In this document: positions 1-9,520 of the stretch, piece by piece
Position numbering within the stretch: position 1 is the first letter of the stretch
How the letters are laid out: every line of letters begins with the position of its first letter
DNA from: Micromonospora sp. HK10
GTDB taxonomy: Bacteria > Actinomycetota > Actinomycetes > Mycobacteriales > Micromonosporaceae
Direction: 5' to 3'
DNA length: 64,000 bases
Assembly (NCBI RefSeq): GCF_000982955.1
Contig: NZ_KQ058902.1
Location: 1 to 64,000 of the forward strand
Program-made: the position numbers and the translations under genes
The notes under the pieces: generated by a model
Databases searched by the model: none
Told to the model about the DNA's origin: nothing
The model's input: the letters and a program-made list of their open reading frames with translations, nothing else

Positions 1-75
1 CCCGCCCGACGCCACCCGCCCGGCGCCACCCGCCCGGCGCCATCCGCCCGGCGCCGCCATCCGCCCGGCGGCCGA
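1..75. repeat. GC-rich short tandem repeat at window edge
   Basis: Imperfect direct repeats of a roughly 14-base unit (GCCACCCGCCCGGC and variants) run from the window edge to about base 75. It may be the end of a gene that begins outside the window or a non-coding minisatellite; the sequence here cannot decide. No other feature is visible in the first 170 bases. Confidence 0.5.
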
Positions 76-170
76 GCCCGCGCGGCCGCCCGGCGCTCCC
101 GGCCCCACCGCCAGCACGACGCCATCGGTGACGTTGAGTAACATCGCCCGGCACCCGGACCTGCCCACCG

Positions 171-253
171 CGCTGCCTTTGCTCTGCAGCCATCCGCGCA
201 GCAGGTATACGGTGCGCAACCGCTGCGTCCGTGGCTGCAGAGCAAAGGCAGCG
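171..253. repeat. Long palindromic hairpin element upstream of serS
   Basis: Bases 171-192 are an exact inverted repeat of 232-253: 22 bp arms around a 39-base loop. The loop itself contains a smaller inverted repeat (CGCAGC / GCTGCG). The structure would form a long RNA hairpin or a cruciform about 280 bases before the serS start. It has no run of T residues, so it is not a classical terminator of one strand. It may be a dispersed palindromic repeat or a structured leader; it occurs only once in this window. Confidence 0.7.
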
Positions 254-532
254 AAGGGGCATCAAGGAGGTCGGGCGTATCCGATCGGATGACCAGGTCA
301 GAGGAGTGAGGTACGGGGGTTCCCCGGGGTGGACACGGCTTGCGACCGCCGTCCGTTACTCAGCGTGGTCACACCGGCGGGCAGCGGCGTCAATCACGTA
401 CCGTCACCCGGGTCGTGCGACGACGGCGGCCGCTCGGGGCTGTCCCGCCCGGGGCGGGCCGGGCCGGCCGGGCCGCGACGGTAGCATCTGGGGGTCCTAC
501 CTGACTGCCTGGACGGAGGCGTACGGAGCAGC

Positions 533-1819
533 ATGCTCGACATGGAGTTGATCCGGAAGGATCGCGAGGCGGTGGCAACCGCGCTCGCGAAGCGGCTGGA
601 TCCCGCCGAGGTCAATCGGGCGTTGGACGAGATCCAGCGGCTCGACCAGGAACGCCGCGCCCTCATCACGGAGATCGACGCCGAGCGGCAGCGCCGCAAG
701 GCCGAGGCGCGGGCGTACGCGCAGGCGAAGCGCGCCGGCAGTACGCCGGAGCCGGCCGCGCCCGAGGCGGAGCGCAAGCAGCTCGCCGAGCTGGAGTCCC
801 AGCTGGACGAGGTGCAGTCCCGGCTGCGCGGCACCATGAGCGAGCTGCCCAACCTGCCCGCCGACGACGTGGTCGCCGGGGGCAAGGAGGCCAACCGGGT
901 GGTACGGACCTTCGGCGAGCCGCCGGCCATCGAGCGGGTCCGTGACCACGTGGAGCTGAGCCGGGCGCTCGGGCTGGTCGACCACGAGCGCGGCGTCAAG
1001 CTCGGCGGCTCCGGCTTCTGGATGTACACCGGGATGGGCGCCCGCCTGGAGTGGGCGCTGGTCAACTGGCTGATCGAGCAGAACATCGAGGCCGGGTACG
1101 AGTTCCTGCTGCCGCCGCACCTGCTGCTGGATTCGGCCGGCTTCGCCGCCGGGCAGTTCCCCAAGTTCTACGACGACGTCTATCACCTGGACAAGCAGTC
1201 CGCGCCGCGCGGGCAGTTCCTGCTGCCCACCGCGGAGACGGCGATCCTCGGTGCGTTCCAGGACGAGATCCTGGAGACCGCGAAGCTGCCGCTGAAGGCA
1301 TTCGCCTACACCCCGTGCTACCGGCGGGAGGCGGCCGGCTCGCACTCCGACGAGCGCGGCACGGTGCGGGGCCACCAGTTCAACAAGGTGGAGATCTTCC
1401 AGTTCACCCTGCCGGAGCAGGCCGACGCCGCGCTGGCGGCGATGGTCGCCCACGTGGAGGGCCTGGTCGGCAAGCTCGGGCTGCACCACCAGACCAGCCT
1501 GCTCGCGGCCGGCGACGCCAGCGCGGCGATGAAGAAGACCCTCGACGTCGAGGTCTGGATGCCGAGCACCGGCAAGTACAAGGAGGTGTCGTCGGTCTCC
1601 TGGGGCGGCGACTACCAGGCCCGCCGGGCGGCCATCCGCTACCGGGAGCCGGGCGGCAAGCAGACCCGCTTCGTGCACACGTTGAACGGGTCGGCGCTGG
1701 CCACCAGCCGGCTCTTCCCGGCCATCCTGGAGCAGTTCCAGCAGCCCGACGGTTCGGTGCTGGTGCCGGAGGTGCTCCACGACAAGCTCGGCACCGACCG
1801 GCTCACCCCGGTCCGCTGA
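533..1819 (+). CDS. serS: Seryl-tRNA synthetase, divergent type
   Basis: Class II aminoacyl-tRNA synthetase, 428 residues, charging tRNA-Ser with serine in the cytoplasm. An N-terminal coiled-coil arm (about 1-110) precedes the catalytic core. Motif 2 reads CYRREAAGSHSDERGTVRG followed by HQFNKVE. Motif 3 reads HTLNGSALATSR. The serine-site TAE and NGS residues are kept, so it should be active. The arm and core are nearer to the E. coli-like type than to the usual actinobacterial SerRS, and the common SSCSN-x-x-DFQARR segment is SSVSWGGDYQARR. The start has GGAG eight bases upstream. A hairpin follows the stop. It may be the only SerRS or a second, specialised copy. Confidence 0.9.
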   Translation: MLDMELIRKDREAVATALAKRLDPAEVNRALDEIQRLDQERRALITEIDAERQRRKAEARAYAQAKRAGSTPEPAAPEAERKQLAELESQLDEVQSRLRGTMSELPNLPADDVVAGGKEANRVVRTFGEPPAIERVRDHVELSRALGLVDHERGVKLGGSGFWMYTGMGARLEWALVNWLIEQNIEAGYEFLLPPHLLLDSAGFAAGQFPKFYDDVYHLDKQSAPRGQFLLPTAETAILGAFQDEILETAKLPLKAFAYTPCYRREAAGSHSDERGTVRGHQFNKVEIFQFTLPEQADAALAAMVAHVEGLVGKLGLHHQTSLLAAGDASAAMKKTLDVEVWMPSTGKYKEVSSVSWGGDYQARRAAIRYREPGGKQTRFVHTLNGSALATSRLFPAILEQFQQPDGSVLVPEVLHDKLGTDRLTPVR

Positions 1820-1829
1820 CCGGCGCGGT

Positions 1830-1846
1830 CCCGCCGTGACGGCGGG
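1830..1846. terminator. Hairpin between convergent serS and thioredoxin genes
   Basis: CCCGCCG-TGA-CGGCGGG forms a perfect 7 bp stem with a 3-base loop, ten bases after the serS stop and just beyond the 3-prime end of the convergent minus-strand gene. There is no U tract, as is usual for GC-rich actinobacterial terminators. Confidence 0.55.
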
Positions 1847-1874
1847 GTTGGGCGTCGCCCGGCCCCGCTGTCCG

Positions 1875-2477
1875 TCATCCCCGGGCCAGCGCCGCGACCT
1901 GACGGGTCAGCGCCTCGCCGTCGAGGAAGCCCCGGTGCACGATCCGGCCGTCCCGGTCGAGGATCAGGAAGGTGCTCTGCTCGACCACCTCGAAGCGCCG
2001 CCACAGCGCGCCGGCCCGGTCGTCGAGCTGCGTCGTGCCGGCCAGGTCGAACTCGGCGACGAACCCCTTCATCGCCCGCTGATCACCCAGCCCGGCGACC
2101 CCGACGATGGGCACCGTGTCCCGGTACGCCGGGGCGAGCTCGGCGACCGTCCACGCCTGGCTGGCGCAGGTGGCGCACCAGGGCGCCCAGAACCACAACA
2201 CCACCGGCCGGCCGGCCAGGTCGGCGGCGGAGAACGCCGTACCGTCGAGGGTCTTCGCGGTGAACGACAGCGTCTCGGGCACCCGGGCCGGGACCGACGG
2301 GGCGGCCGGCCGCGTGGAGCCGGTCGGGGCCGGCGAGGCGGGGGCCACGGCGCCGACCGGCGCGGCCCGCTCCGGGGTGACCGCGCAGGAGACCGGCGCG
2401 GCCAGCGCCACGGCGAGCGCGACGGCCCGGACGAGGCGGCGGGCCGGCCGATCAGCCGCTGGTGAACTGCGGGACAT
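1875..2477 (-). CDS. TlpA/ResA-like thioredoxin lipoprotein
   Basis: 200-residue exported thiol-disulfide protein. An N-terminal hydrophobic signal (about 14-30) ends at a Cys in APVSC, a near-lipobox, so it is probably a lipoprotein. A Ser/Pro/Ala-rich linker (about 32-66) leads to a thioredoxin fold with the active site WCATC and the conserved preceding WFWAPW. The cis-Pro region of typical TlpA is replaced by STFLILDRDG. The start is set by GAGGAGG five bases before the ATG. It is the third gene of the redox operon, 21 bases after the NuoF-like gene. It probably oxidises or reduces cysteines of exported proteins or heme handling factors. Confidence 0.85.
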   Translation of the reverse strand: MSRSSPAADRPARRLVRAVALAVALAAPVSCAVTPERAAPVGAVAPASPAPTGSTRPAAPSVPARVPETLSFTAKTLDGTAFSAADLAGRPVVLWFWAPWCATCASQAWTVAELAPAYRDTVPIVGVAGLGDQRAMKGFVAEFDLAGTTQLDDRAGALWRRFEVVEQSTFLILDRDGRIVHRGFLDGEALTRQVAALARG

Positions 2478-2498
2478 CCGCGCCTCCTCTGGCGTCGG

Positions 2499-3962
2499 CT
2501 ACTCGGACCGGACCAGCCGGAGCGCGAGTTCGGGGCAGACCTTCACGGCCTTGAGCGCGCCCTCCCGCAGCCAGGTGGGCACCGGGGTGGTGGGGAAGGC
2601 GGGGTAACCGTTGCCGTCGAGCCGGATGAAGTCCGGCACCACGTGGGCGCAGAGCCCGTGCCCGTCGCAGCGGGACCAGTCCAGGGTGAGCTTCTGCGGG
2701 TTGCCGTCGGGCGCCCCGGGTAGGCCCATCACGCCCTTCACCCGCTTGCCGCACCCCTCGCCGGTGGCGTGCAGCCGCAGGTCCTCGGCGAACACCTCCA
2801 TCGCGGAGAGCGCGAAGCGCGCGGTGCCGTCGGGGTGGCTGCACGCGCCCCGGCCCTTCACGTCGCCGGCCGCGGCGCGGACCACCTCGACCGGCGCGCT
2901 GCCGGAGACCGCGAGGTCGACCGCGCGGGCCAGGTCGGGCAGGCCCATCTTGCAGGGACCGCACTGCCCGGCGGACTCGCCGGCCAGGTAGCGGACCACC
3001 TGGGCGGCCTCACCGAGCGGGCAGGTGTCCCGGCCGAGCGGGACGATGATGCCCGCGCCGAGGGTGCCGCCGACGGCGGCGAGACCCTTGCGGGAGACCT
3101 CCGCCCGGTCCGCCGCCTCCGGCGTGATCCACTTGCCGTGGTAGCCGCCCATCAGGATGCCGGGCCCGTCGGGCACCTCGCAGAGTTCGAGGATGTCCCG
3201 CAGCGGGGTGCCGGCGGCGCACTCCACCACGGCCGGCCGCTTCGCCACTCCGGTGACGGTGAGCAGCACGGTCCCCGGCTCGTCGTCGGTGCCCAACGCC
3301 GCGTACTCGTACGGGCCGATCCGGGCCGCCACGGCGACCTGGGCGTACGTTTCGGCGTTGGAGAGCAGGGTGGGCAGCCCGCCCACCCCCGAGTCGCTGG
3401 AACGCTTCTTGGTGCCCGGCGGGATGTGCGGTAGCCCGTTGATGCCGTTGACCAGCGCGCCGCCCTCCCCCGAGATGAACCGGTGCGGCACGGTGACGAC
3501 GGTGGTCGGCACCGGCATCCGCCGCTCCCGCAACGCCTCGGTCAGCGACGGGCGGCCGATGTCGTCGTCGGCCACGCCGATGACGATCTCCTCGGCGTCC
3601 AGCGCGTACGCGGCCAGCGCCGCGCCGTCCAGGATCAGGTGCGGGGCCCGGGTGAGCAGGACCTTGTCCTTCCAGCTCGCCGGCTCGCCCTCGGTGGCGT
3701 TGACCACCACCACGGCGGACAGATCCTGCCGCTCGCAGGACTCCAGCACGGCACGCAGCTTGCGGGCGAACGGGAAGCCGGCGCCGCCCTTGCCCTTGAG
3801 GTCGATGGCCTCGGCGAGCCGCAGCAGGGCGGCCGGTTCCATCGGCCCGATCGGGCCGTGCACGTCCTCGTGGGCGAGCAGGTCGAGCCGGCCGAACTCG
3901 GCGAAGCCGGCGGTGAGGCGGGGCTCGCCGACGCAGGCGACCGGCGGCACGGTCGTCCGCAT
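2499..3962 (-). CDS. NuoF-like NADH dehydrogenase flavoprotein fused to ferredoxin
   Basis: About 487 residues. The order is a NuoF/Nqo1-type NADH-FMN domain (GKGGAGFPF near 60; NATEGEPASWKDK near 90), a SLBB region, a NuoF C-terminal iron-sulfur segment and a C-terminal [3Fe-4S]-type ferredoxin (CDGHGLC then KVCP). In complex I the cluster motif is ESCGxCxPC; here it is ESAGQCGPC, so the first ligand is Ala. The start is ATG 3962 (TGATG overlap with the previous stop) or GTG 3965. Position between a heme membrane protein and an exported thioredoxin suggests it takes electrons from NADH for the membrane partner. It is not part of a complex I operon. Confidence 0.85.
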   Translation of the reverse strand: MRTTVPPVACVGEPRLTAGFAEFGRLDLLAHEDVHGPIGPMEPAALLRLAEAIDLKGKGGAGFPFARKLRAVLESCERQDLSAVVVVNATEGEPASWKDKVLLTRAPHLILDGAALAAYALDAEEIVIGVADDDIGRPSLTEALRERRMPVPTTVVTVPHRFISGEGGALVNGINGLPHIPPGTKKRSSDSGVGGLPTLLSNAETYAQVAVAARIGPYEYAALGTDDEPGTVLLTVTGVAKRPAVVECAAGTPLRDILELCEVPDGPGILMGGYHGKWITPEAADRAEVSRKGLAAVGGTLGAGIIVPLGRDTCPLGEAAQVVRYLAGESAGQCGPCKMGLPDLARAVDLAVSGSAPVEVVRAAAGDVKGRGACSHPDGTARFALSAMEVFAEDLRLHATGEGCGKRVKGVMGLPGAPDGNPQKLTLDWSRCDGHGLCAHVVPDFIRLDGNGYPAFPTTPVPTWLREGALKAVKVCPELALRLVRSE

Positions 3963-5689
3963 CACTTCGCCTCACCCCGCAGCCCGGCCCAGTACGCCCC
4001 GTCGACGGCGTCGGCGTCGGCCCGGCGGCGGCGCCGCCCGGAGCGCCCCTCCCCGGCGGCCCGCAACGCCCGACGGGAGGCGAGGTCGACCAGGGTGGGA
4101 GTGTCGTCGACGAAGACCTCCTCCGGGGCGTACCGGGCCGGCGGGCGCCAGTAGTCCGGCTCCTCCGGCACCTCCGTCTCGCCGCTGTGCCGGCCGGCGT
4201 CGCTGCGCGGCTCCGCCGAGATCGGGCTGCCGGAGATGGGGCCCGCCGAGACCGGGCCGGCCGAGATGGGCTCGCCGGAGACCGGCCGGGCCGACCAGCG
4301 GCGCGGGCTGTCCCACGGCTCCTCCGGCTCGTCCGTGCGGCGGGGCGGGGCCGAGTAGCGGGCGGCGGCGTCCGAGTAGCGGCCGGCGTCCGGCGGGGTG
4401 GAGTAGCGGGTGCCGGGGTCGGGCGGGGCGGAGTGGCGGCCACCGGCGTCCGGCGGGGCCGAGTGCCGGGCGGCGGTCTGCTCCGCGGACCGGGACCGGC
4501 GCCCGACCCGCTCCTCCTCGTCCCGGTAGCGGCGGGTCGACCGGTCCTCGTCGCGCCGCCCGACCCGCTCATCGGTGCGCCGGGCCGACCGGTCCTCGTC
4601 GCGCCGGGCCGGGCGTTCGTCGCCGCGGCGGGCGGGCCGGTCGGCGTCGCCGCGGCGGGCGGCCGGGGCCAGCTCCGCCGCGCCGCGCCGCGCGCCGGAG
4701 ACCGGCTCTTCCGTGCCCCGGCGGCGGGCCGCCGCCCGGACCGGCTCGCGCAGCGAGCCCGGCTCCGGCACCACCGGTACGGCGAACCGCTCCGGGTCGC
4801 GGCGGCGGGCGGTGCCGGCCGGCGCGGTCCAGGTGGCGGTCACCTCCGCCCAGCTCGATTCCCGCCGGCCGGACCGGCTCTCCTTCTCCTCCCGGCCGGC
4901 CGAGCGCTTGCGGGTGAGCCCGGCGAGCAGCCCCTTCCCGTCCTCGGCCCGGCCGGTCATCGCCTTGTTGAGCGCGGCGGCCTGGTGCTGCTCACGGCTG
5001 CGCCGGCCGAGGTACACGGAGAGGCGGACCAGCAGCGCCAGCACCACCAGCAGCACGCAGGCCAGGTAGCTCAGCAGCACCCAGGCCTTCGCCGCCCGGC
5101 CCGCGTTGAGCCCGTGCACCAGCGCGAACGGCCAGGAGAGGTACGCCATCGAGTGCAGCGCGCGCCAGAACCACCGCGGCCCCACCCCGGCGAACCGGAC
5201 CCGGACCAGGCCGGTCCAGAGCACGCTCACCATGAGGAAGGAGGCCACGGTGCCCAGCCCGACGTAGAGGCCACGGCCGCCGATGAACGGCACGAGCGCG
5301 TCGGTGGGCGCGGCCCGACCGGTGGCCACCTTGGTGATGACGTGGCAGGCCAGCCCGGCCACGCCGAGGATGCCGGTGGCCCGGTGGGCGGACTGCAGCA
5401 GCACCCGGTGCGGGATCCGCAGCACCAGCCGGTCGGTGGCGAGCAGCCCCATCATCACGGTGAGGCTGAGCGAGACCAGGGCGACGACCCCGGCGAAGAA
5501 CTCGGTGAAGAAGAATCCGTACGCGTACAGGGCCCCGCCCGCGCCGGCCAGCTCGACGCCGGCCCACGCAGCGGCGAGCGCGGACCCGCCGAGCGCCACC
5601 ATCGCGGGCTTCGACATGGTCCGGACGCCACGGCTGGTGCTGGCGGTGCGGACGGTCGTCGGCTTCTCGTTCTGCTGTGCCCGGGCCAT
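3962..5689 (-). CDS. Ferric reductase-like heme membrane protein with long charged tail
   Basis: 575 residues. About six membrane helices span residues 28-230. Two pairs of histidines spaced 13-14 residues apart (SAHRATGILGVAGLACH and LHSMAYLSWPFALVH) match bis-His heme b ligation of the ferric reductase/NOX transmembrane family. The C-terminal 340 residues are disordered and repetitive: RRDEDRSARRTDERVGRRDEDRSTRR blocks, then SAPPDAG repeats and ISAGPVSAGPISGSP repeats. No FAD/NAD reductase domain is attached; the next gene probably supplies it. GAGGAG precedes the ATG. First gene of the three-gene operon, divergent from alpha-amylase. Confidence 0.85.
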   Translation of the reverse strand: MARAQQNEKPTTVRTASTSRGVRTMSKPAMVALGGSALAAAWAGVELAGAGGALYAYGFFFTEFFAGVVALVSLSLTVMMGLLATDRLVLRIPHRVLLQSAHRATGILGVAGLACHVITKVATGRAAPTDALVPFIGGRGLYVGLGTVASFLMVSVLWTGLVRVRFAGVGPRWFWRALHSMAYLSWPFALVHGLNAGRAAKAWVLLSYLACVLLVVLALLVRLSVYLGRRSREQHQAAALNKAMTGRAEDGKGLLAGLTRKRSAGREEKESRSGRRESSWAEVTATWTAPAGTARRRDPERFAVPVVPEPGSLREPVRAAARRRGTEEPVSGARRGAAELAPAARRGDADRPARRGDERPARRDEDRSARRTDERVGRRDEDRSTRRYRDEEERVGRRSRSAEQTAARHSAPPDAGGRHSAPPDPGTRYSTPPDAGRYSDAAARYSAPPRRTDEPEEPWDSPRRWSARPVSGEPISAGPVSAGPISGSPISAEPRSDAGRHSGETEVPEEPDYWRPPARYAPEEVFVDDTPTLVDLASRRALRAAGEGRSGRRRRRADADAVDGAYWAGLRGEAK

Positions 5690-5873
5690 CTGCTCCTCGA
5701 TCGTCTCGCGGCGGCGCCCCCACCGACCGGTGCCTGCTCCCTCCTCCTGTACGGACGGACGGCGTGGACGGATCAGCCCGGTGGCGAATTTCTCGGCCGG
5801 ATCGTCGAACCGGCCCGAGCCGGCGTGCGTGTAGCCGCATCCGGCGCGATACGCAACGACGGGTATCCATGCG

Positions 5874-5903
5874 TTGACAGGTTTTGCAACACGCTTGTAA
5901 CCT
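5874..5903 (+). promoter_or_regulatory. Alpha-amylase promoter with direct-repeat operator
   Basis: A perfect -35 TTGACA (5874-5879) is followed after 16 bases by TGTAAC (5896-5901) or after 18 by TAACCT. Direct repeats TTGCAAC (5884-5890) and TTGTAAC (5895-5901), one helical turn apart, fill the spacer. Streptomyces amylase promoters carry similar TTGCA-type repeats bound by LacI-family MalR; assignment here is by analogy. Confidence 0.6.
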
Positions 5904-6018
5904 TGCCGAAAATTTCAGGATCCGCTGCAAGAAACGTGCAGCGAGCCTCGTGCCACCGCACCCCAGCCCTGTCCCCCGCACCCCCACCCCGTTCCCCCGC
6001 ATCCCCTCGGGAGTCCCG

Positions 6019-7512
6019 ATGCATCGACCCGGATGCCGGCCGTCACGACGCCAGCCCGGCGTGCCCGCGCCCGCCCCGCGCCGCCGCGCCGCGGTGGCGG
6101 CCCTCGCCCTCGTCGCCGGCCTGCTCGCCCCGACCGCGCTGGCCGCGCCCCCGGCCGCCGCCGCCACCCCCGGCGGCAAGAAGGTCATCGTCCAGCTCTT
6201 CGAATGGAACTGGCCCTCGGTGGCCAACGAGTGCACCACCGTGCTCGGCCCCAAGGGCTACGGCTACGTCCAGGTCTCGCCACCCCAGGAGCACGTCACC
6301 GGCAGCCCCTGGTGGGTCGCCTACCAGCCGGTCAGCTACCGGGTGGAGTCCCGCAAGGGCACCCGGGCGCAGTTCCAGTCCATGGTGAACACCTGCCACG
6401 CCGCCGGCGTGAAGGTCATCGTGGACGCCGTCATCAACCACATGTCGGGCCAGGACAACGGGGGCACCGGCTGGGCCGGCTCGTCATACGGCCACTACAA
6501 CTACCCGGGCGTCTACAGCTCGGCCGACTTCCACTACTGCGGCCGCAACGGCGGCAACGACATCGCCAACTACGGCGACCGGTACGAGGTGCAGAACTGC
6601 GAGCTGGTCAACCTCGCCGACCTCAAAACCGAGTCCGACTATGTCCGGTCCCGGATCGCCGGATACCTCAACGACCTGCTGTCGCTCGGTGTGGACGGGT
6701 TCCGGCTGGACGCCAGCAAGCACATGCCGGCCGCCGACATCGCCGCCATCAAGGGCAAGCTCTCCCGCTCGGCGTACCTGGTGCAGGAGGTCATCTACGG
6801 CGCCGGCGAGCCGATCCAGCCGACCGAGTACACCGGCAACGGCGACGTGCACGAGTTCCGCTACGGCAAGGACCTGGCCCGGATGTTCACCAGCGAGCGG
6901 CTGGCGTACCTGAGGAACTTCGGCGAGTCCTGGGGGTACCTGCCGGGCGGCCAGGCGGTGGTGTTCACCGACAACCACGACACCCAACGCGACGGCGGGG
7001 TGCTGACCTACCGGGACCGCGGCGAGTACGCGCTGGCGAACGCCTTCATGCTGGCCTGGCCGTACGGCACGCCCGCGGTGATGTCGAGCTTCACGTTCAG
7101 CGACAAGGACCAGGGACCGCCCTCGGACGCCGGCAACAAGACCCGCGCCACCACCTGCTACTCCGGCTGGGAGTGCGAGCACCGCTGGCGGGTCATCGCC
7201 AACATGGTCGGCTTCGCCAACGCCACCCAGGGCGCGGCGGTCGCCAACTGGTACGACAACGGCTGGCAGCACATCGCGTTCAGCCGGGCCGGCAAGGGTT
7301 ACCTGACGCTCAACGACGAGGACTTCGCGATCACCGGCCGCTCGTACTACACCGGGCTGCCGGCCGGCCGGTACTGCGACGTCATCCACGGCGACTTCAG
7401 CAACGGCTCGTGCAGCGGGCCGGTGGTCACCGTCGACGCCGGCGGCTGGTTCGCCGCGACCGTCAACGCGCACGACGCGGTCGCCATCCACATCGGAGCG
7501 AAGCTGTCCTGA
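6019..7512 (+). CDS. amyA: Secreted alpha-amylase (GH13)
   Basis: 497 residues from ATG 6019, which has GGGAG five bases upstream; the reading frame is open further upstream but the signal peptide begins here. Arg-rich N-region, hydrophobic stretch (about 23-40) and an AxA site near 47 give a Sec signal. GH13 motifs: DAVINHMSG (region I), GVDGFRLDASKHM (region II with the Asp nucleophile), QEVIYGAG (region III with the Glu acid) and FTDNHDTQR (region IV). The C-terminal third resembles the all-beta domain of Streptomyces-type amylases and has no starch-binding module. It hydrolyses starch outside the cell. Upstream repeats suggest maltose/glucose control. Confidence 0.95.
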   Translation: MHRPGCRPSRRQPGVPAPAPRRRAAVAALALVAGLLAPTALAAPPAAAATPGGKKVIVQLFEWNWPSVANECTTVLGPKGYGYVQVSPPQEHVTGSPWWVAYQPVSYRVESRKGTRAQFQSMVNTCHAAGVKVIVDAVINHMSGQDNGGTGWAGSSYGHYNYPGVYSSADFHYCGRNGGNDIANYGDRYEVQNCELVNLADLKTESDYVRSRIAGYLNDLLSLGVDGFRLDASKHMPAADIAAIKGKLSRSAYLVQEVIYGAGEPIQPTEYTGNGDVHEFRYGKDLARMFTSERLAYLRNFGESWGYLPGGQAVVFTDNHDTQRDGGVLTYRDRGEYALANAFMLAWPYGTPAVMSSFTFSDKDQGPPSDAGNKTRATTCYSGWECEHRWRVIANMVGFANATQGAAVANWYDNGWQHIAFSRAGKGYLTLNDEDFAITGRSYYTGLPAGRYCDVIHGDFSNGSCSGPVVTVDAGGWFAATVNAHDAVAIHIGAKLS

Positions 7513-7522
7513 CCGCGGTCAG

Positions 7523-7562
7523 CGTGGCGCGGCGTCCGCCAACTGCCGGCCTCCGCGCCACG
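7523..7562 (+). terminator. Terminator hairpin after alpha-amylase
   Basis: CGTGGCGCGG (7523-7532) pairs perfectly with CCGCGCCACG (7553-7562), a 10 bp stem starting ten bases after the amylase stop, with a 20-base loop and no U tract. A shorter palindrome, CTGACCGCGGTCAG, overlaps the stop codon itself. Confidence 0.5.
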
Positions 7563-7575
7563 TGATCGACCCCAG

Positions 7576-7752
7576 CTGCCGCATCCCGGCCCCACCGCCG
7601 CCCGGGACGGCACAGGATGCCGCAATCCGGCCCCACCGCCGCCCGGGACGGCACGGATGCCGCATCCCGGCCCCGCCGCCCGGGACGGCACGGGATGCCG
7701 CAATCCGGCCCCACCGCCTCCCGGGACGGCACGGGATGCCGCAATCCGGCCC
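7576..7752. repeat. Minisatellite, 37-41 bp unit, about 4.4 copies
   Basis: Units begin near 7576, 7617, 7657, 7694 and 7735. Each carries GATGCCGCAATCCGG (or GCATCCCGG) followed by CCCCACCGCC and CCCGGGACGGCACGG. Copy length varies, and not by multiples of three, so coding is unlikely. The ATGCCGCAA core reappears in the larger array at 25440-25990. The array fills the space between amylase and the L,D-transpeptidase. Confidence 0.8.
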
Positions 7753-7806
7753 TTCCAGCCCGCCTGGGCGGCGCGCGATCTGACCGAATGGGGCGTTTCG
7801 GTCGAC

Positions 7807-7812
7807 TACAGT
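7807..7812 (+). promoter_or_regulatory. -10 element placing the transcript start on a GTG codon
   Basis: TACAGT (7807-7812) lies six bases before GTG 7819, and no Shine-Dalgarno sequence precedes that codon. This is the layout of a leaderless mRNA. No convincing -35 is seen. Confidence 0.45.
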
Positions 7813-7818
7813 TTGTAT

Positions 7819-8724
7819 GTGCTATTTGATCGGTTGTTCTCGCGGTGGACCCTCGGCTGGCTGCTCGCCGCCGTCGGCGTACCGCTGCTGATGGTGGCCG
7901 CGTTGCTGGTCGGTCGGGCGCTCACCGCCGACCCGGTGCCTGCGCGTACCCCGCTGGTCTCCGCCCCCCAGCCGCCACCGGCGGAGGAGCCGAGCCCGAC
8001 ACCGAGCGTGCCGCCGGCCGCGCCGGCCCCGGACGACCTGCCGGTGGTCAGCTACGACCCGGCGCCCGGCGGTTTCCCCGCCGATCCCGGCGCGGGCGAC
8101 ACCCGCCCGCTCACCGAAGGGCTGTCGCCGACCCGCACCATCGCCGCGTACGACGCGCCGGGCGGTCGGCCCCGGGCGTTCCTCGCCCCGACCATCAGCG
8201 GGGTCGACGTGACCATGCCGATCGTCGACCGGCAGGTCGGCTGGACGGCGGTGCTGCTGCCCTCGGCCACCCGGCGGATCGCCTGGCTGCCGGCCGGCGG
8301 TTGGCAGACCATCGCGCTGCCCGACCAGCTCGTGGTGGAACGCCGGACGCACCGGCTCACCTGGTTCCGCGACGGTCGCCCCGTCGGGTCCTGGCGGGTC
8401 AGTCTCGGCATGCCCGGTCAGGCCACCCCGCTCGGCCGCACCTTCGTGCTGGGCCGTACGCCCCCGCCGCAGGACGTCTACGGCGGCGTGGACATCTTCG
8501 CGCTGGGCGCGATCCCGGACGAGCCGGACGCGGTGCCGACCGGGCTGCGCGGCGCCCACATCGGACTGCACAGCTGGCACAACGACGACACGCTCGGCCA
8601 GAACGTCACCAACGGCTGCATCCGGCTGACCCGCAGCGGGCAGCGGCAGCTCCTCGCCGCGCTGCGGCCGGGCACCGAAGTGGTGGTGGTCGACCGTCTC
8701 GCCACCCCGCCCCCGACCGCCTGA
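7819..8724 (+). CDS. L,D-transpeptidase (YkuD domain)
   Basis: 301 residues from GTG 7819. The frame stays open upstream but runs into the minisatellite, and the -10 element at 7807 supports a leaderless start here. One membrane helix (about 9-33) anchors it, followed by a Pro-rich linker (about 45-75) and an Ldt domain. The catalytic region reads HIGLHSWHNDDTLG then NVTNGCIRL, the HxxGC-type YkuD signature with the nucleophilic Cys. It would make 3-3 cross-links in peptidoglycan or attach envelope proteins. TPLGRTFVLGRT is the usual substrate-loop segment of the family. Confidence 0.88.
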   Translation: MLFDRLFSRWTLGWLLAAVGVPLLMVAALLVGRALTADPVPARTPLVSAPQPPPAEEPSPTPSVPPAAPAPDDLPVVSYDPAPGGFPADPGAGDTRPLTEGLSPTRTIAAYDAPGGRPRAFLAPTISGVDVTMPIVDRQVGWTAVLLPSATRRIAWLPAGGWQTIALPDQLVVERRTHRLTWFRDGRPVGSWRVSLGMPGQATPLGRTFVLGRTPPPQDVYGGVDIFALGAIPDEPDAVPTGLRGAHIGLHSWHNDDTLGQNVTNGCIRLTRSGQRQLLAALRPGTEVVVVDRLATPPPTA

Positions 8725-8734
8725 GCCGCCCCCC

Positions 8735-8880
8735 AGCACCGCCTGCCCGCACCGCCCACCGGCACTGCCCGCCGGCACCACCCACCGACACCGCCCCGCC
8801 CGCCGGCACAGCCCACCGACACCGCCCCGGCCGCCGGCACCGCCCCGCCCGCCGGCACAGCCCATCGGCACAGCCCTGGC
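8735..8880. repeat. GC-rich degenerate tandem repeats
   Basis: Irregular copies of CACCGCCCACCGGCAC and CCGCCGGCACAGCC fill the space between the transpeptidase stop and the convergent response regulator. No gene or clear hairpin is seen in it. Confidence 0.6.
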
Positions 8881-8896
8881 CGCCGGCCCGGGTCGC

Positions 8897-9520
8897 TCAG
8901 TCGCCGAGCAGCCAGCCGTTCTCCTCGGCGACCCGAACCGCGTCGGCCCGGTTGCGGGCGCCGGTCTTGCCGATCGCGGCGGAGAGGTGGTTGCGCACCG
9001 TGCCCTCGGACAGGTGCAGCGTGGCGGCCAGGTCGGCGACCGTCCCGCCGCCCCGGGCGGTACGCAGCACCTCGGTCTCCCGGTCGGTGAGCGGGCTCGG
9101 CCCGGTGGCCAGGGTCTCCGCCGCCAGGGTGGGGTCCACCACGCGCAGCCCGGCGTGCACCCGGCGGACCGCGTCGGCGAGCTGCCGGGCCGGGGTGTCC
9201 TTGACCACGAAGCCGTTGGCGCCGGCCTCCATCGCCCGGCGCAGGTAGCCGGGGCGCCCGAAGGTGGTCACCACCAGCACGCGGCACGCGGGCAGCGCGG
9301 CCCGCAGCCGCGCGGTCGCGGCGATGCCGTCCAGGCCGGGCATCTCCACGTCGAGCAGTGCCACGTCGGGCCGGGTCCGGCGGGCCTCGGGGACCACCTC
9401 GTCACCGCGGCCCACCTCGGCCACCACGGTCAGGTCCGGCTCCAGCGACAGCAGCGCGGCCAGGGCGCCCCGGACCAGCGCCTGGTCGTCGGCGAGCAAC
9501 AGCTTGATCGGCTCGGTCAC
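8897..9520 (-). CDS. NarL/DesR-family response regulator
   Basis: 207 residues. The receiver domain (about 5-120) has the acidic pair DD near 11, phospho-acceptor D in ALLDVEMPG and K in FVVKDT. The C-terminal LuxR HTH reads LTDRETEVLRTA then LHLSEGTVRNHLSAAIGKTGARNRADAV. GTG start, four bases after the stop of the histidine kinase gene, so the two are probably translationally coupled. It is the last gene of the operon 12434 to 8897 and presumably activates its own exporter operon on a membrane-stress or drug signal. Confidence 0.93.
   Translation of the reverse strand: MTEPIKLLLADDQALVRGALAALLSLEPDLTVVAEVGRGDEVVPEARRTRPDVALLDVEMPGLDGIAATARLRAALPACRVLVVTTFGRPGYLRRAMEAGANGFVVKDTPARQLADAVRRVHAGLRVVDPTLAAETLATGPSPLTDRETEVLRTARGGGTVADLAATLHLSEGTVRNHLSAAIGKTGARNRADAVRVAEENGWLLGD

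Follow-up and report, generated by a model that had tools for sequence, protein, structure and literature searches.

How can a membrane-embedded heme protein that lacks a reductase domain of its own be supplied with electrons, and to what does it pass them outside the cell? This question is raised by three consecutive minus-strand genes in a 64,000-nucleotide stretch of DNA (hereafter the window) from contig NZ_KQ058902.1 of Micromonospora sp. HK10. They code for a predicted bis-heme membrane protein (HEM; positions 3962-5689, 575 amino acids), a NuoF-like protein that ends in a ferredoxin (NUO; 2499-3965, 488 amino acids), and an exported thioredoxin (TRX; 1875-2477, 200 amino acids). HEM and NUO share 4 bases, and 21 bases, which include a AGAGGAGG stretch, separate the NUO stop codon from the TRX start. 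An earlier reading of this DNA from its letters alone (the original prediction) described these open reading frames (ORFs), their overlap and spacing, the histidines, the domains and the WCATC motif just as we find them, and proposed that the chain carries electrons from NADH to the outside, where TRX or ferric iron accepts them.

Our analysis favors a somewhat different arrangement. We consider it fairly probable that HEM and NUO constitute a two-gene transmembrane NAD(P)H dehydrogenase, or electron exporter, with changeable outside acceptors, and that TRX is the end of a separate thiol pathway.

HEM and NUO as a Conserved Pair

The arrangement was surveyed in 150 Micromonosporaceae genomes, including that of the window, where a NUO of at least 61% identity occurs at 79 places in 77 genomes, all of which were inspected. 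HEM lies upstream of NUO at every one of the 79 places. By gene calls, which outside the window were made with a simple codon-usage script and are approximate for starts and short genes, the two genes overlap by 4 bases in 40 of 76 cases and lie within 130 bases of each other in the remaining 36. Similarly, HEM adjoins NUO in 79 of 80 named loci (76 by gene call, and L204, L206 and L216 by hidden Markov model), and the sequence of the sole exception, L210, begins 171 bases before NUO. The closest named NUO, from M. fulviviridis, is 96% identical. A second pair is present in the same genome (G000:C119:9842-12762, locus L036); its NUO is 64% identical, and no TRX accompanies it. HEM-NUO pairs are also present in genera such as Streptomyces, Nonomuraea, Actinomadura and Planotetraspora, where the neighboring genes listed do not include TRX.

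One of the 79 places, in genome G112, is cut by a contig end, and the downstream side can be judged at 77 (two loci end too early). TRX follows at 31 of these and is lacking at 46. Thus, the proposal that the three genes would be found adjacent in other genomes holds for HEM and NUO, which are always neighbors, and for TRX at only some loci of the family. HEM and NUO make up a true two-gene module, and TRX is not an obligate third part, because its subfamily usually occurs with the membrane protein CcdA and is present at only these 31 loci.

No called gene in the loci of the 79-place family matches the FNR-type, ApbE or FMN_bind seeds with which they were searched, and a separate flavin adenine dinucleotide (FAD) reductase alongside HEM, which the original prediction had named as the competing arrangement, is likewise not seen with the FNR-type seeds. 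This result, the constant presence of HEM upstream, and an idea already in print for MsrQ-like proteins in the part of Meheust et al. (2021; PMC8238504) available to us all support the earlier proposal that the NuoF-like protein replaces a reductase domain. Judged from these sequences, NUO likely stands in for the domain that HEM is missing.

The Membrane Heme Protein

HEM is predicted to be a six-helix bis-heme b membrane protein of the ferric-reductase or MsrQ-like type. Four histidines (H102, H116, H179 and H192) are retained in 99-100% of 108 homologs and are invariant in a set of 52 sequences. An AlphaFold2 model of residues 1-250, made with 52 sequences (predicted local distance difference test score, pLDDT, 88.5), has six long helices with the histidine pairs on the third and fifth. 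The top Foldseek ranks for this model are the transmembrane domain of NOX5 (5o0t) and STEAP4 (probability 1.00; E 0.02 and 0.1), and a second structure comparison retrieves b6f, SpNOX, STEAP and b561. When five HEM relatives were scanned with the Ferric_reduct family (PF01794), L057 (3.2e-8) and L062 (1.2e-9) passed and L041 fell 0.1 bit short.

Neither Pfam nor NCBIfam reveals an FAD/NAD domain on the HEM chain at E 0.1, and for this reason we reject an ordinary NOX protein or ferric reductase with its own flavin domain. The C-terminal part of the chain is a low-complexity tail of about 330 residues, rich in Arg and Ser, with motifs at residues 528 and 566. The tail end often carries a motif of the type [YF]W..[LIM]R.E (56 of the 76 called family HEM proteins). 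This tail is probably cytosolic, and its motif could possibly serve in docking NUO. The basic N-terminus and the loops suggest that both ends of HEM are cytosolic, so that H102 and H179 would hold an inner heme and H116 and H192 an outer one.

An Altered NuoF with a Fused Ferredoxin

NUO carries the Pfam domains Complex1_51K (1.5e-28) and NADH_4Fe-4S (PF10589; 3e-13), followed by a Fer4_15 ferredoxin domain (2.8e-12; residues 427-483). The ferredoxin is of an atypical kind (C-x5-C...CP), with cysteines C433, C439 and C477 coded within positions 2535-2669 of the minus strand. The AlphaFold2 model of NUO (pLDDT 89.6) is matched by HydB, NfnB and NuoF in Foldseek at E 1e-29 to 1e-24 (about 1e-24 for the NuoF chains), with a TM-score of about 0.7.

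A residue survey of 117 homologs indicates where NUO departs from NuoF. At the altered N3-type cluster site (A332, C335, C338 and C375; positions 2841-2972, minus strand), the first cysteine place, 332, is Ala in 114 homologs. The other residues of the site are kept (C335 in 116, C338 in 116, C375 in 115 and H377 in 110), as is C405 in 115. The second Glu of the GEETAL motif is Gly in 77 homologs, Glu in 21, Ala in 12 and Ser in 5, with G168 (GEGGAL) in the window, and the Phe of the PPF motif is replaced by Arg in 95. As a control, the genome's own NuoF retains both ESCGKCTPC and GEETAL in the same alignment. A duplicate of complex I was therefore rejected as the identity of NUO, given its altered cluster and the presence of the genome's own nuoF elsewhere.

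These substitutions suggest that NUO is a changed NuoF rather than a plain NADH subunit, and its donor could be either NADH or NADPH. The original description of an NADH-, flavin mononucleotide (FMN)- and Fe-S-containing protein ending in a ferredoxin thus stands for the NuoF/FMN fold, the Fe-S domain and the ferredoxin; NADH itself is not established, with the canonical Glu and one N3 cysteine missing. A preference for NADPH over NADH, suggested by the exchange of Glu for Gly and of Phe for Arg at the nucleotide site, is only a guess that depends on the roles we presume for these two places, and a search of the open-licence literature for this idea found nothing. Among the distant relatives listed, many have the ferredoxin as a separate gene (60-77 amino acids) behind NUO, and the ferredoxin is therefore tied to the same path.

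We propose that NUO, on the cytosolic side, would bind FMN and a nicotinamide nucleotide and split the two electrons, which would then pass by way of the modified Fe-S site to the ferredoxin at the NUO C-terminus. From this ferredoxin the electrons would go one at a time to the inner heme of HEM, move on to the outer heme and then reach an extracytoplasmic acceptor. This acceptor would vary by lineage, being probably a flavinylated protein, made by a neighboring ApbE, in distant relatives, and another redox protein or a protein not yet recognized elsewhere. TRX, normally reduced by CcdA, would be the exported terminus of a separate thiol pathway that shares the operon in Micromonospora, Actinoplanes and their kin. 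As such a linked thiol arm, TRX might in some lineages be fed by HEM-NUO. The sequences themselves show how the genes are built and placed, which ligands are conserved, the class of fold, and where CcdA accompanies TRX or is absent; the cofactors, the donor, the direction of flow and the acceptor are inferred from them.

TRX and Its CcdA Partner

TRX matches AhpC-TSA/Redoxin in Pfam, and its best solved chains are the mycobacterial proteins DsbF (3ios) and MPT53 (1lu4), in keeping with a TlpA/DsbE-like thioredoxin. The WCATC motif lies at residues 100-104. The hydrophobic N-terminus and Cys31, which sits in a weak lipobox (Pro at -3), suggest an exported protein that is a probable lipoprotein. 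Ser168 occupies the usual cis-Pro place, where Ser is also present in 30 of 30 NUO-linked copies and Ser or Glu in 21 copies of a stand-alone set. The loss of cis-Pro was considered as the mark of a special heme-linked thioredoxin and was rejected, since stand-alone TRX-CcdA pairs have the same loss.

Away from NUO, the TRX subfamily has CcdA adjacent in 66 of 69 copies (at least 89 bits). This is the proper count; 20 stand-alone regions were picked for their resemblance to TRX-CcdA pairs, so that the CcdA found in 21 of 21 cases there is no test. The window genome itself holds a stand-alone pair (G000:C166:46481-47843, locus L243), with Glu at the expected cis-Pro place. Beside HEM-NUO, CcdA is found downstream at 19 places, never without TRX, such that 19 of 31 linked relatives have ccdA immediately after TRX, and it lies directly behind TRX at this locus in 11 of 16 genomes of the same genus, counting that of the window. 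In the window, no CcdA is found next to TRX. The place where those 11 genomes have ccdA is here a 55-base gap between the stop codons of TRX and serS (positions 1820-1874), and the TRX stop overlaps an ATG (ATGA). The acceptor named by the original prediction, TRX or Fe(III), is not established by these data: TRX is missing from most judgeable loci, its subfamily is that of a stand-alone CcdA pair, and in most of the same-genus genomes surveyed CcdA stands behind it.

Linked and unlinked copies of TRX differ in how often they lack CcdA. Beside HEM-NUO, adjacent CcdA is missing in 11 of 30 copies, versus 3 of 69 elsewhere (at least 89 bits; Fisher p 8e-5, kinship ignored). This contrast draws on 33 of the 79 NUO places (the TRX-bearing loci plus G133 and G112) and on all TRX places; several cut-offs were used, with 89 bits as the main one, and the TRX copy of G112 was counted as unlinked only because its contig is broken. 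When the cut-off is lowered to 55 bits, CcdA is missing in 12 of 31 linked copies versus 17 of 84 elsewhere (p 0.054), though the low scorers thus admitted may represent different types of TlpA. A TRX tree with 119 rows and poor resolution places 8 of its 11 CcdA losses on branches linked to HEM, which make up 31% of the length (p 0.0055). If L092 (truncated) and L289 (an outlier) are omitted, the figure is 7 of 9 (p 0.0075). The tree includes 61 unlinked rows of the 84 places and leaves out L193, whose TRX trace is under the cut-off; some named loci duplicate genomes of the other set, which adds no losses. An independent-pairs test yields 2 usable pairs on supported branches and is uninformative.

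Judged by these counts, TRX seems to dispense with a neighboring CcdA more easily beside HEM-NUO. Alternatively, the absence of CcdA may be the first step in decay of the TRX-CcdA pair, because some relatives have no trace of either gene (L094, L164 and L172), while in L092 the TRX is truncated. At the locus, TRX persists in six Actinoplanes-group genomes that have no Micromonospora-like CcdA anywhere at E 1e-8, and each of these retains another PF02683 protein over the cut-off. The stronger statement that these six have no CcdA at all was rejected, since PF02683 proteins persist in 16 of 16 genomes tested.

Candidate Acceptors in Relatives

HEM is called in 34 of 41 distant loci, and in 30 of these 34 an ApbE-like gene lies within two genes upstream; this identity was checked with Pfam at one locus, L041 (PF02424, 2.1e-42). 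L040 carries both FMN_bind and ApbE. Within the family, a Rieske protein is found downstream of HEM-NUO at L136. At the window locus, no ApbE or FMN-binding gene lies within five genes, a search that covers one gene only on the left side and that does not extend to DUF2271 or DUF3570. A search of the window genome for the ApbE family finds members on contigs C34 and C61 only, and none on the window contig. On C34, an FMN_bind protein (6.6e-6) stands beside ApbE (2.3e-45) and is possibly an acceptor for HEM-NUO in trans.

Upstream of distant HEM-NUO pairs, we also observe a short protein, rich in Ser and Thr and containing a single hydrophobic segment, that is coupled to ApbE (L041:8059-8328, L044:8570-8959, L062:4165-4422, and in L047, L060, L064 and others). 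The count rests on 11 loci that pass a crude ApbE pattern out of 41 inspected. Of 10 coupled ORFs that were collected irrespective of how they end, 9 have the terminal residues S-N-G-S, S-H-G-S, T-G-G-S or S-G-G-S. Possibly, this protein is an ApbE substrate of very small size that lacks an FMN_bind domain; it is not among the ApbE substrates named in the available part of PMC8238504.

L068, L070 and L073-L075 have a distant NuoF-like gene, in most cases accompanied by a separate ferredoxin, and no HEM call; Rieske-type and hydrolase-like genes lie nearby (Rieske Pfam match in L068, 1.5e-12). The NuoF-like/ferredoxin reductase pair seems to be reused there for other acceptors. Some Streptosporangiales have an exported DUF4142 protein encoded close to HEM-NUO (L212:3150-5130, 2.1e-24; L205:7708-8289, 4.6e-21). 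L212 additionally has a secreted DUF1996 protein (5.8e-22), and L215 (3081-5131) is similar in appearance.

Alternative Electron Routes

Several observations weigh against a HEM-NUO exporter that works apart from TRX. The window HEM has no Pfam match and no NCBIfam match at E 0.1, and a search of PDB sequences gives none at E 1. Its model has no Foldseek match at E<=0.001, and the Z of 10-12 reached with b6f, SpNOX, STEAP and b561 is little above the background of helical bundles, which is support for the fold class, not proof. Against a Ferric_reduct cut-off of 28 bits, the nearer relatives L036 and L040 reach no more than 17. Because one N3 cysteine and the canonical Glu are gone from NUO, its nucleotide use is uncertain. 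Many loci have no obvious acceptor gene beside HEM-NUO, the neighbors being mostly unidentified. Finally, CcdA is more often absent beside HEM-linked TRX, as would be expected of a serial chain in which HEM-NUO takes the place of CcdA and reduces TRX either directly or by way of a small carrier. The shared operon, the frequent overlap or close spacing of NUO and TRX, the concentration of CcdA losses on HEM-linked branches, and the six Actinoplanes-group genomes that have TRX at the locus and no close CcdA all agree with such a chain. However, the CcdA contrast shrinks at 55 bits, another PF02683 protein is present in all six genomes, a second TRX-CcdA pair resides in the window genome, and 46 of 77 judgeable HEM-NUO places are without TRX. 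Moreover, the losses may be the opening step by which the pair disappears, as the lack of any trace of TRX or CcdA in L094, L164 and L172 and the truncated TRX of L092 would permit. We also know of no precedent for a thioredoxin that takes up one-electron transfer from a heme to a dithiol, which counts against the chain. On balance we find direct or carrier-mediated reduction of TRX rather doubtful. We are slightly more skeptical of its complete form, in which a chain from NAD(P)H through the NuoF/ferredoxin protein and the two hemes reduces exported TRX, displaces CcdA, and so explains the repeated loss of CcdA beside HEM-NUO.

The acceptor might instead be dioxygen or metal ions, such that HEM-NUO is a superoxide-type NOX or a ferric or cupric reductase and TRX is unrelated. 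The fold neighbors of HEM include NOX5, SpNOX and the STEAP metalloreductases, and the family has no fixed third gene. In addition, 153 MsrQ-like clusters with a VIT1 iron transporter are reported in the available part of PMC8238504. Yet no iron or copper transporter was recognized among the window ORFs at positions 1-9000, which were read by eye, and the ApbE-like gene that accompanies HEM-NUO in 30 of 34 distant loci suggests that a flavoprotein is the acceptor in them; we consider this alternative unlikely. Highly improbable, in our estimation, is a reversed flow or a cytosolic partner, with NUO mainly feeding ferredoxin-dependent enzymes and HEM acting as a quinone- or sensor-type cytochrome. 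The distant NuoF-like genes near Rieske-type genes and without a HEM call would fit this alternative, but in the family of the window HEM is upstream of NUO without exception and the ferredoxin is fused to NUO.

Genomic Context

On one side the three genes are flanked by serS (533-1819, read by eye), which is convergent with them, and on the other by a divergent ORF for an alpha-amylase (5884-7512; Pfam 1.7e-13). The window lies on contig 254 of a 6.9-Mb draft genome, and this contig ends after serS, so that the left side is visible for one gene only.

Comparison with Known Systems

Electrons can be routed outward as thiol-reducing power via the cysteines of CcdA or DsbD, or as one-electron redox power via hemes. 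A single TRX subfamily that keeps or lacks CcdA according to whether a heme unit is its neighbor offers a natural series in which to ask if these routes are interchangeable. HEM-NUO itself would represent a complex I module, its cluster altered and a ferredoxin fused to it, that is reused as the detachable reductase domain of a NOX-like protein with changeable acceptors.

An MsrQ-like protein paired with a NuoF-like one has been published before, as a minor class among flavinylation clusters. According to the available part of Meheust et al. (2021; PMC8238504), 31 of 1797 MsrQ-like flavinylation clusters include a NuoF-like PF10589 protein, for which an NAD(P)H donor was suggested. That part also describes flavinylation systems with DsbD and thioredoxin-like proteins, and the combination of HEM, NUO and TRX is not described there; searches of the open-licence literature listed nothing else relevant to this three-part combination. 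Models of MsrQ-like proteins resemble a two-heme PepSY-like structure, as stated in the part available of a further study (mSystems 2024; PMC11334425). As in the published NuoF subclass, which is found mainly in Actinobacteria, a predicted ferric-reductase-type bis-heme protein stands beside a PF10589 protein at our locus. In contrast to that subclass, the flavinylated partner is missing at the window locus, where no ApbE or FMN-binding gene was found, the ferredoxin is fused to NUO, HEM has a long tail, and TRX (with CcdA in relatives) is part of the operon. No MsrP molybdoenzyme was recognized by eye among the window ORFs at positions 1-9000, for which no family search was made.

The HEM model shares with NOX5 (5o0t), SpNOX (8qt6) and STEAP4 (6hcy) a helical membrane core with two His pairs. 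Unlike NOX proteins, ferric reductases and STEAP proteins, the HEM chain has no FAD/NAD domain and is accompanied by a separate NuoF/ferredoxin protein. NUO has the FMN domain and the Fe-S helical bundle of NuoF in complex I and of HydB and NfnB in bifurcating enzymes, but differs from them by Ala in place of the first N3 Cys, GEGGAL in place of GEETAL, Arg at the Phe of PPF, an extra C-x-H motif, C405 and the fused ferredoxin. In addition, no NuoE or NuoG gene was recognized alongside it when the ORFs were read. TRX resembles MPT53 and DsbF as an exported, TlpA-like protein with a CxxC thioredoxin fold, and differs in the Ser (or Glu) at the cis-Pro place and in the missing ccdA of the window. 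Relative to all of these systems, what is new is a variant without flavinylation, in which the ferredoxin is fused and the Fe-S site altered, together with its link to a thiol pathway.

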